From an uncultured bacterium (GTDB lineage: Bacteria; Cyanobacteriota; Vampirovibrionia; Gastranaerophilales; Gastranaerophilaceae), in the NCBI GenBank assembly GCA_949294335.1, contig CASFGO010000018.1:62001-126000 (forward strand): 64,000 nucleotides of DNA, written 5' to 3'. The position numbers and the translations under genes are program-made. The first letter of the stretch is position 1. Each line of letters opens with the position of its first letter. The notes below the pieces were generated by a model. It made no database searches, had not been told where the DNA came from, and was given only the letters and a program-made list of their open reading frames with translations. This document shows positions 60,374 through 63,479 of this stretch, piece by piece.

Positions 60374-62278
60374 TTAAATCAAATTAAGAGCAATTGAAGG
60401 AGCTTGATTTGCTGTTGCTAATAATGATGCTGAAGCTTGCTGTAATATTTGAGCTCGGATATAATCTGCTGATACTTTTGCGATATCTGCATCTTTTATT
60501 ACAGACCTTGATGCTATCAAACTCTGAGAACTTACATCAATCTGATCTAATATACTAAACAATCTATTTTTCATAGCTCCCAATTCAACTTGTTTTGTAT
60601 TTAATTGGTTTAAACAATCATCAATTTTATCTAAAAAATCAGGAGAAGTTATACCATCACCTGTTAAATCATTTAAAGCCGGTAATGAAATATAAGTATT
60701 ATATGTTAAGCCACTAGATGAATCAGAATTAATACCAATTTGTAAATAAAAAGAAGTTCCCATTGTCATATCAGTAACATTATCAATATTATTATTTCCA
60801 CTACCAACCATTGGCAGCCCTAGTATCAAAGTCCCATCATAATAACTATCTTTTATTGTTATTGTTTTATTATCATTAACAAAACCAACAAATCCTCCTA
60901 CATTAGTTTTACCATAAACTGTACCTTCAATTATAGTATTTGTAATAGAAAAACTGTGCTGTTTTGTTTTACCAATAATGCCACCAACATTTGTATCTCC
61001 TGATACACTTCCTCTAAAATAATTACCTGAGATACTTACATTAACAGATCCAATGATTCCACCTACATCATTAATTCCAATAACTGTAGCTTCAGAATAA
61101 CAATTACCTGCACCTCCAATACCAACAATACCACCAACATTATTATTTCCTTGGATTTTACCTTTTACATAACAGTACGAACTACTTGAGTAATTATTAA
61201 AGCCTGAAATCCCACCTACATTATTTAATCCAAAGATATTAACATCAGCATAACAATATGCAGTGCTTAGATAATATCCAGTACCAACTATTCCTCCTGT
61301 ATAATTATTCCCACCTTTAAGAGTTGCATTAAATACTGAACAGTTTATAATTTGGCCTCCAGACCCAGAACCTACAATTGCCCCACAATGTGCATTATTC
61401 GCAGAAGTAATATCTACATTTTTTAAAGATAAGTTTTCAATTCTTGAAAGAGATCTATCACTTCTATTCGCAACTCCACCAAATAGACCCACACGAGAAT
61501 AACTTGGTAAATTTATATACAAATTAGAAACAGTATAACCATTCCCATCAAATATACCTTTAAACAAATTAGAATCAGTACCAATTGGAGTCCAACCATT
61601 ACCTGATGTATATCCACTCAAATCAATATCATTTGCAAGTACAAATTCGCCATCAGTTACTTTTCCTGCGTTTACCATTCTTGCCAACTTTGCTAACTCA
61701 TCTGCACTTGAAATACTATATGTTCCACTTGTAATTATTGTATTTTCATCAACACTTGCAAGAGTTGTCATACCTGATGTATCCCTTACAACGACTTCTT
61801 TCAATAGACCTTGAGAATTCAATTTTAATTCCTTAGCTGGATTGGTAACATCAGATGTTGATGTAAACAATTTTTTACCATTATATTCTGCAGTAGATTT
61901 AATTCTATATAACTCACTTATTATTGAATTTGCCTCTCTTGTTATTGCAGATATAGAATCATTACCATATGTTCCATTTAATGCCTGAACAGATAACGCA
62001 CGCAAACGACTCAAAGAATCCGACATTATAGATAATGTCGAACTTGCAGTCTGTATCATATCCAAGCCATCATTCACATTATCTCTTGCAACACTATATC
62101 CTCCAATCTGTGTGTCCATTTTGGTAACAACAGCATATCCAGCAGCATCATCTTTTGTCGAGTTTATTCTATAACCCGTAGTCATCTGCTGCAAGGCTCT
62201 ATCCAACTCCAAGGATGATTGTTTTAATGACAACTGTACCATCAAGCTTGATATATTTGTATTGATTGTCAGCGCCAT
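60374..62278 (-). CDS. flagellin with GLUG-repeat variable domain
   Basis: The N-terminal D0/D1 (residues 1-about 150; MALTINTNISSLMVQLSL, LQQMTTGYRINSTKDDAAGYAVV) and C-terminal D1/D0 (about 550-634; LASRSVIKDADIAKVSADYIRAQILQQASASLLATANQ) are canonical. Between them, about 350-400 residues carry repeated GLUG-type units (NNVGGIVGIGGAGNCYSEATVIGINDVGGIIG). Such units occur in secreted adhesins and hydrolases, so the filament surface may be adhesive. At 634 residues it is larger than usual. GTGAGGT precedes the ATG. The promoter has a 12-G tract. Confidence 0.92.
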   Translation of the reverse strand: MALTINTNISSLMVQLSLKQSSLELDRALQQMTTGYRINSTKDDAAGYAVVTKMDTQIGGYSVARDNVNDGLDMIQTASSTLSIMSDSLSRLRALSVQALNGTYGNDSISAITREANSIISELYRIKSTAEYNGKKLFTSTSDVTNPAKELKLNSQGLLKEVVVRDTSGMTTLASVDENTIITSGTYSISSADELAKLARMVNAGKVTDGEFVLANDIDLSGYTSGNGWTPIGTDSNLFKGIFDGNGYTVSNLYINLPSYSRVGLFGGVANRSDRSLSRIENLSLKNVDITSANNAHCGAIVGSGSGGQIINCSVFNATLKGGNNYTGGIVGTGYYLSTAYCYADVNIFGLNNVGGISGFNNYSSSSYCYVKGKIQGNNNVGGIVGIGGAGNCYSEATVIGINDVGGIIGSVNVSISGNYFRGSVSGDTNVGGIIGKTKQHSFSITNTIIEGTVYGKTNVGGFVGFVNDNKTITIKDSYYDGTLILGLPMVGSGNNNIDNVTDMTMGTSFYLQIGINSDSSSGLTYNTYISLPALNDLTGDGITSPDFLDKIDDCLNQLNTKQVELGAMKNRLFSILDQIDVSSQSLIASRSVIKDADIAKVSADYIRAQILQQASASLLATANQAPSIALNLI

Positions 62279-62342
62279 AATATTACCTCACTTTCTTGTG
62301 AAGTAATAACAAAATCATATAAAACGCTCAAAAACCCTTTTA

Positions 62343-62384
62343 TTAGGCTATTATACCCCCCCCCCCCGAAATTGAAACAGTTTC
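62343..62384 (-). promoter_or_regulatory. flagellin promoter with G12 tract in the spacer
   Basis: On the minus strand TATAAT (62355-62350) is directly preceded by twelve G (62367-62356). A -35-like GTTTCA at 62378-62373 is 17 bp from TATAAT only because of the present G count. GAAAC-N-GTTTC, an 11-bp inverted repeat at 62374-62384, overlaps the -35. The predicted leader is about 65 nt. Confidence 0.75.
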
Positions 62385-62564
62385 GCAGCAAGGGTTTGCA
62401 GCATATTCAAACATTAATAAACAATTCAATCCATTTGAATTCATTCTTAGTTAATATCCCTAGGTGTAATTAATGCGATAGTATATACATTATTATTATA
62501 GATTATTTATATAACCCTTGCAATATATATTACAAAAAGTTTACACCTTATATTTTTTAATATT
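62385..62564. other. intergenic region upstream of flagellin promoter
   Basis: No gene is seen. A GTATATAC octamer is at 62481-62488. GCAAGGGTT (62387-62395) and AACCCTTGC (62512-62520) are distant inverted copies. No terminator is evident for the glycosyltransferase gene upstream, so read-through toward flagellin is possible. Confidence 0.4.
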
Positions 62565-63479
62565 TTAGTTAAGTGTAGCAATAATAAAATTAACCCCTTC
62601 TATTGAATTATACTTGTTAAGACAAATATTTTTGCAATATTGAGTTATAGAATCATAATCAGTTTTATTATCTAAAAAATATTTTATTTGTTTTTTTAAA
62701 TCATCACACGTTTCATAAACAGGAATTTTATTATCAAATAAATCTAATTCACTTCTTTTATCTGATATAAGCAATTTTCCACAAGCAATCGCTTGCATTG
62801 TTCGATAATTCAACGAAGATATTCCTTGAGAATTCATATTAATGACAATCTTAGATTTATTAATTGCCGTTGCCATATCTTTTTCATTATCTATAAATCC
62901 TGAGTAAATTTTTTCAATAGTAGTTTTATTTTTAGCTCTTGCGAGTGCATCTTTATAATGTTTTTCTATTGCGTACCATCTAAATTTAATATCAAGGTTT
63001 TCGACTAAATCAACTATCATATTTAATCGATAATCGGTATCAAGTCGCCCTGCAAACATAACGTCACACTCTGCAGATAAACCAAAATCCTTATAAATAT
63101 TTGTATTTACAAAATGAGGCAAATAATAAATATTTTTAAATTTTTCTTGTTTAATTAATTCTCTATCCCAATAAAAAGTATAATTTTCATCTTTTTCTAA
63201 TTCTTCTAGTAGTTCTTGCCAATAAGGTCCAGATGTTCTACATTTAATTTCGTCTGAGAAATAATTAACAGATTTCATCGTTAAATTATTATCTTTTTTT
63301 ATTTTGATAGCCGAAAAATCATAACCTACAATTAAATCGTACTCATTATTTAATTGGAAATTGTCTTTTAATTCATCAAAAACAGTTACACTATGTCCAA
63401 GCATAGTAAAACCATCTAGTATACTAGATGTTGTTAAGCGTCCTCCAATACTTTCTGGTAAAATTCCTAAAACTTTCAT
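62565..63479 (-). CDS. CgeB-like GT-B glycosyltransferase
   Basis: The 304-residue protein has a Rossmann-like N-terminus (KVLGILPESIGGRLTTSSILDGFTMLGHSVTVFD). A C-terminal donor-binding half resembles CgeB/spore-maturation-type transferases (VMFAGRLDTDYRLNMIVDLVENL, VINMNSQGISSLNYRTMQAIACGKLLISDKRSEL). The sugar donor is unknown. Its position just upstream of flagellin on the same strand makes flagellin glycosylation a reasonable guess. The ATG overlaps the stop of the sdaAA gene. Confidence 0.8.
   Translation of the reverse strand: MKVLGILPESIGGRLTTSSILDGFTMLGHSVTVFDELKDNFQLNNEYDLIVGYDFSAIKIKKDNNLTMKSVNYFSDEIKCRTSGPYWQELLEELEKDENYTFYWDRELIKQEKFKNIYYLPHFVNTNIYKDFGLSAECDVMFAGRLDTDYRLNMIVDLVENLDIKFRWYAIEKHYKDALARAKNKTTIEKIYSGFIDNEKDMATAINKSKIVINMNSQGISSLNYRTMQAIACGKLLISDKRSELDLFDNKIPVYETCDDLKKQIKYFLDNKTDYDSITQYCKNICLNKYNSIEGVNFIIATLN

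Follow-up and report, generated by a model that had tools for sequence, protein, structure and literature searches.

Poly-G tracts within predicted leader reading frames upstream of flagellin genes in Gastranaerophilales: a putative frame-dependent switch

Introduction

A run of twelve G residues lies a short distance upstream of a gene for a large flagellin in the window (the whole 64-kb stretch of DNA analysed here), where it directly abuts the hexamer TATAAT. The question raised by this arrangement is whether the tract serves to switch the flagellin gene and, if so, by what means. Several ways of switching surface structures are known that might be called upon: poly-G/C tracts form promoter spacers at porA and opc of Neisseria meningitidis, frame-shifting poly-G/C contingency loci lie inside coding sequences in Campylobacter and Helicobacter, and flagellin phase variation in Salmonella proceeds by Hin, a recombinase that inverts DNA. 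The original prediction assigned the tract to the first of these types. Comparison of the locus with its counterparts in the genus points to another arrangement, in which the tract probably shifts the frame of a short leader ORF on the flagellin mRNA, to which translation of the flagellin would be coupled. No report of phase variation in Gastranaerophilales was found in the literature searched, and the one paper there that names both Melainabacteria and phase variation treats them separately.

Results

The flagellin locus of the window

The features of the locus are collected in Table 1. On the minus strand the order is GTTTCA-ATTTC-G12-TATAAT, the tract being followed by TATAATAGCC, and the spacer between GTTTCA and TATAAT is exactly 17 nt, so that the layout described in the original prediction was accurate to the nucleotide. 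The tract is also unusual: in DNA with a GC content of 29.2% it is the only G/C run of at least 7 in the window, G runs of at least 12 are expected by chance ∼3e-4 times in the whole 1.75-Mb genome (both strands), and 8 G runs of at least 9 were observed in that genome versus ∼0.09 expected. The downstream gene, the ATG of which is separated from the end of the tract by 77 nt, proved to encode a flagellin with both terminal domains, the middle of the protein being long and variable with repeated GLUG-like (NVGGIVG) motifs. Its nearest relatives among named genomes are in Gastranaerophilales/Melainabacteria MAGs, which points to a host among these gut-dwelling relatives of cyanobacteria. Directly upstream of the flagellin gene is a glycosyltransferase gene (Glyco_trans_1_2, 62565-63479), which is kept at loci in genomes G002 and G005 and is possibly a flagellin glycosylation gene.

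Table 1 Features of the flagellin locus, with positions numbered from the start of the window
Feature	Position	Strand	Basis or remark
G12 tract, predicted slippage site	62356-62367	minus (C12 on plus)	sequence
TATAAT adjoining the tract, -10 of the original prediction	62350-62355	minus	sequence
GTTTCA, -35 of the original prediction	62373-62378	minus	3/6 matches to TTGACA; not conserved
Flagellin gene, 634 aa	60374..62278	minus	Flagellin_N E=2.6e-31, Flagellin_C E=3.7e-15
Flagellin Shine-Dalgarno GAGGT	62285..62289	minus	6 nt before ATG; sequence
P1, upstream promoter-like site: TTGCAA (62523-62518), 17 bp, TATAAT (62500-62495)	62495..62523	minus	10/12 matches
Hairpin ATTACTTCAC-AAGAAA-GTGAGGTAAT, predicted to sequester the Shine-Dalgarno	62282..62307	minus	pairing in 5 distinct sequences
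AGGG, candidate leader Shine-Dalgarno	62458..62461	minus	13-nt spacing in the window; in the other cassettes about 4-13 nt
Leader ORF as assembled at G12, MNSNGLNCLLMFEYAANPCCETVSISGGGGIIA then stop	62343..62444	minus	ends 13 nt past the tract; predicted OFF
Leader ORF downstream half, ON frame, YNSLIKGFLSVLYDFVITSQESEVILWR then stop	62269..62355	minus	TGA 8-10 nt inside the flagellin coding sequence

A family of cassettes with tracts of different length

The same cassette was found at 17 places in four of the eight genomes of the genus (eight in G000, four in G002, three in G003 and two in G004). The genes behind the cassettes mostly encode large flagellins (∼550-634 aa), and also giant flagellin-like proteins of ∼1350-1390 aa; no flagellin was recognised behind G004_C1a, and the contig ends before the gene at G000_C6e, G000_C22e, G002_C15 and G002_C40. 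Two of the giant proteins (L172:88-4266, 1393 aa, and L171:416-4483, 1356 aa) have both Flagellin_N and Flagellin_C, with a weak to moderate match to RTX calcium-binding repeats in the middle. The upstream regions read of flagellins of ∼287 and 344 aa contain no tract. Among 288 family genomes searched, exact GGGGGGTATAATAGCC was confined to this genus, the four matches outside it each having one mismatch to the cassette pattern, and viral contigs searched with GGGGGGTATAATAGCCTA gave no match.

Tract lengths across the cassettes range from 6 to 13. The G9 tract of G002_C24 and the G13 tract of G003_C5 lie between flanks that are identical at 194/200 positions upstream (97%) and 69/70 downstream, without gaps, and G002_C15 has a G7 tract preceded by the glycosyltransferase and serine dehydratase genes that also precede G12 in the window. 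These lengths are those of the assembled consensus, several contigs breaking at this repeated region, and the differences are between species and loci, with one genome per species; at that level the variation in tract length is well supported. The broader claim of the original prediction, of flagellin phase variation by a length-variable poly-G tract, gains from the recurrence of the cassette in four species and from the differences in length between near-identical flanks, but the promoter-spacer mechanism attached to it was not supported, for reasons given below.

Another account would be that the tract is conserved sequence spread among flagellin loci by gene conversion, with no role in switching. 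Exchange between loci has clearly occurred: a stretch of at least 70 nt following the tract is shared unchanged across species while the upstream parts differ (window 62279-62355, G002_C15, G002_C40 and G003_C1), and G002_C40 combines the upstream part of one cassette type with the downstream part of another. However, this account is very unlikely given lengths of 6 to 13 between near-identical flanks, the excess of G runs of at least 9 over chance, and the existence of tract-less alleles, which make the tract dispensable for having the gene.

Promoter sequences around and upstream of the tract

In the original prediction, transcription was set by the spacing between -35 and -10, as at porA or opc. 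On such an account a promoter (P2) would use TATAATAGCC as its -10, at a spacing from a -35 or from an upstream activator site that is governed by the tract, as in switches of the porA/opc or Bordetella fim type. In keeping with this, TATAATAGCC follows the tract at 13 of the 17 cassettes and hardly varies, synonymous positions included, and a conserved block ∼20 nt upstream of the tract (e.g. CTGCAAACCCTTGCAG) could bind an activator. Nevertheless, the hexamers 17 bp upstream of the -10 position match TTGACA at only 0-3 of six positions across the 17 cassettes, no -35 is conserved, and TATAAT is absent after the tract at four cassettes (G000_C4b, G000_C6, G000_C6e and G004_C1b). A recognisable -35 and -10 pair with a homopolymer spacer was thus not found. 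Moreover, a P1-like sequence lies ∼120-135 nt upstream of the tract, similar at other cassettes and at tract-less sister alleles; the latter lack TATAATAGCC and keep both this sequence and the leader ORF described below. A promoter scan gave no excess of P1-like sites over shuffled sequence, and automatic scoring chose other sites at some loci, such that the case for P1 rests on its conservation and, at those loci, on reading of the sequences. Control by promoter spacing is considered unlikely on these grounds, and it would also leave unexplained the pattern of open frames that follows. A sigma-28 promoter was considered at the cassettes and dropped: FliA is encoded in 8/8 genomes, and the motif TAAA-N15-GCCGATAA was not seen at the cassettes by eye.

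Position of the tract in an open leader frame and overlap with the gene start

At every one of the 17 cassettes an open leader frame starts from an ATG or TTG 77-84 nt ahead of the tract and runs into it, and this start codon is usually preceded by AGG at a distance of 4-13 nt. The tract is not in the coding sequence of the flagellin gene, ending before its ATG in a leader ORF of another frame, and the length of that ORF depends on the number of repeat units. At the window locus the TATAAT adjoining the tract is read as Tyr-Asn of YNSL in the ON frame, and as TAA TAG in another frame.

The 12 cassettes with a readable gene start were compared with dinucleotide shuffles, leaving aside those at contig ends (G000_C22e, G002_C40 and G002_C15), that at a contig edge with degenerate sequence (G000_C6e) and that with no recognised gene (G004_C1a). 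The chance of an upstream start in place was about 0.09-0.16 per cassette. In all 12 a frame is open from the tract to the gene start, over 51-230 nt, with any-frame chances of 0.006-0.56 each, and in all 12 one such frame stops overlapping the gene start codon or within the first codons; since several of the cassettes are related, the per-cassette chances are not to be multiplied as if independent. Where TATAATAGCC or TAATAGCC is present, at ten of the tested cassettes, the other two frames stop within 5 codons of the tract, and at G004_C1b the closed frames stop after 0 and 2 codons. The exception is G000_C6, which is without this pattern of two closed frames: one frame closes at once, whereas the remaining two are open over 44 and 56 codons, one of them running past the start. 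Outside the tested set, frames close after 3 and 0 codons at G004_C1a and two close within 5 codons at each of the three contig-end cassettes, while at G000_C6e one frame is closed at once and two are open for 18 and 20 codons.

The sequence between the tract and the gene was examined further by comparing C13 with its relative G002_C43. After the tract 39 of 230 positions differ, with no indel and no stop in the open frame, the other frames being full of stops. The changes fall at the three codon positions 14/11/14, so that no codon-position bias was seen in the leader of this pair and the leader peptide itself is not conserved; selection on the leader, if any, would be for openness. In addition, TATAATAGCCTA shows almost no variation, synonymous sites included, and this is more than coding alone requires.

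Alleles that cannot slip are open

Three distinct sister leaders are without a tract (G006:C18; G006:C15, identical at C37; and G005:C99), the last having the same glycosyltransferase end upstream as the window locus. Each has one continuous ORF that crosses the flagellin start and comprises ∼26-28 codons; examples are (TTG)YSKGLKLQLYLCNAITSQEREVILWL and MLNSNGLNLHLLYCCALKLPKKEVIVWR, each followed by a stop. These ORFs are alike at the beginning (YSKG/NSNG) and at the ending (EVI.W). Similarly, the tract is interrupted at only one flagellin cassette, G003_C2 (GGAGGGGGG), and there too the frame is ON. Alleles that are unable to slip are therefore open, as coupling would require.

These observations bear also on a further possibility, that the tract is transcribed from P1 and exerts graded control as part of the RNA, for example as the target of a C/U-rich small RNA. 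A precedent is RepG, which acts on a G repeat of 7-12 in the tlpB mRNA leader of Helicobacter pylori (PMC8295292), and if P1 is used the tract would likewise lie in the mRNA leader and vary in length. Small-RNA control would, however, explain neither the open frames and the stop overlap nor the ON-frame state of the tract-less and interrupted alleles, and it appears extremely unlikely; where RepG gives graded control, the evidence here points to reading frame.

A predicted hairpin over the flagellin Shine-Dalgarno

The flagellin Shine-Dalgarno region GTGAGGT is predicted to pair with ACTTCAC of the leader. All 50 of 50 pair cells are standard in the five distinct sequences, one pair having a double-sided change; the covariation is consistent with the hairpin and is not significant on five sequences, being reached by 50 of 500 shuffles. 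A similar hairpin, formed from different letters, is predicted at G005:C99. A hairpin separating leader ORF and gene, which lengthening of the leader ORF could open, is hence predicted both in the cassettes whose leader has GTGAGGT and at G005:C99. No terminator-like site was found in 62200-62640. A second candidate RNA stem, spanning the tract (AAACCCTT/AAGGGTTT), was dropped: it can form at C18 but, judged by eye, is incompletely paired at C4a, C33, G002_C24 and C13.

Discussion

Taken together, the findings suggest frame control of an overlapping leader ORF, rather than stretching of a promoter, with the G tract as a slippage-prone frame switch inside that ORF. Transcription would start at P1, to judge from its conserved sequence, and a ribosome would enter the leader ORF at a start ∼80 nt ahead of the tract. 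If the number of G residues keeps it in the ON frame, the ribosome would read through the hairpin that hides the Shine-Dalgarno and stop just inside the flagellin gene, and coupling would then lead to translation of the flagellin. Either of the other two frames would bring it to a stop soon after the tract (after 0 or 3 codons at the window locus), ∼65-75 nt too early, such that the hairpin would stay closed and the flagellin would be OFF; the untranslated mRNA may then be cut short by Rho. Slippage within one strain would presumably move a locus between these states.

Read from the conserved leader start, the window locus with its G12 is predicted to be OFF, while G10 or G13 would put it in the ON state. 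Alternative starts exist in other frames, namely a TTG 24 nt before the tract, which is in the ON frame at G12, and at C13 an ATG 20 nt before it, and the ON/OFF calls are provisional because of them. By the frame of the conserved start, the cassettes that are ON are G000_C22e (one of eight, G000_C6e being undecidable), G002_C24 (one of four), G003_C2 (one of three) and G004_C1b (one of two). One ON cassette per genome would fit, if weakly, with selection for a single active variant, the pattern having been seen after the fact and including cassettes at contig edges. The wider proposal that this gut genus holds a whole repertoire of large, variable flagellins, each switched individually through poly-G slippage in its own overlapping, coupled leader ORF so that the filament surface would differ from cell to cell, is one to which we give an even chance.

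Several known systems share elements with the one proposed. As at porA and opc, poly-G/C lies upstream of a surface-protein gene beside TATAAT and differs in length between relatives, but here there is no conserved -35, TATAAT is sometimes missing and the tract falls within an open leader frame. As in the contingency loci of Campylobacter and Helicobacter, slippage in a G tract would change the reading frame; here, however, the tract is in a separate leader ORF overlapping the start of flagellin. Heritable switching of flagellin expression, as predicted here, is shared with Salmonella, where it is achieved by DNA inversion. The closest described system, on our best reading, is the Pil1/Pil3 pilus switch of Streptococcus gallolyticus (PMC3894217), in which GCAGA repeats in the leader peptide gene of Pil1 decide the opening of a terminator hairpin. 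There, as proposed here, slippage repeats inside a leader-peptide ORF lie between the promoter and a surface-appendage gene, and the reading frame sets the point that the ribosome reaches, which in turn determines the opening of the hairpin ahead of the gene. The differences are that the repeat here is poly-G rather than GCAGA pentamers, that the leader stop overlaps the gene start, that many flagellin loci share the cassette, and that the hairpin hides the Shine-Dalgarno where that of Pil1 is an intrinsic terminator; since no terminator is predicted here, membership in the Pil1 type is not claimed.

If correct, frame control of an overlapping leader ORF would represent a further way of switching by a homopolymer, being neither promoter spacing nor an in-gene frameshift. 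It would concern flagellin, an immune target, in host-associated commensal gut bacteria related to cyanobacteria. It would also illustrate the ease with which a tract of this kind, when TATAAT happens to adjoin it, can be mistaken for a promoter spacer.

Long G tracts are not confined to this genus. A genome of a sister genus, G029, has 91 G tracts of at least 9 in 1.8 Mb (e.g. L236, L240 and L244), and 48 of the 68 tracts listed lie less than 400 nt before a prepilin-like (FTLAEVLITLG) gene on the same strand; at 15 of 16 sampled loci the tract is upstream of an FTLAEVL-type prepilin frame. In the loci of this genome that were translated, the tract lay 8-9 codons after the ATG, with G11 open and G10 closed, and these sequences would be compatible with a very large phase-variable prepilin family. 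The position of these tracts, just after the start of prepilin-like genes, was counted as support for frame switching. Genomes of other genera of the family (G016, G010, G021, G027 and G017) have 48-115 G tracts of at least 9, versus the 8 in the genome of the window. Within the genus of the window, G tracts of 9-13 also occur outside the cassette (L124-L153, e.g. L137 and L143 at G001:C189, and others in G003), some in apparent coding sequence and some within GGGGTAAATG-type repeats. Finally, G10 and G12 tracts at L127 (G004:C1:38385) and L156 (G115:C6:5937) lie beside sequence that by eye resembles the end of an acyltransferase, and are perhaps ordinary frame-shifting contingency loci.
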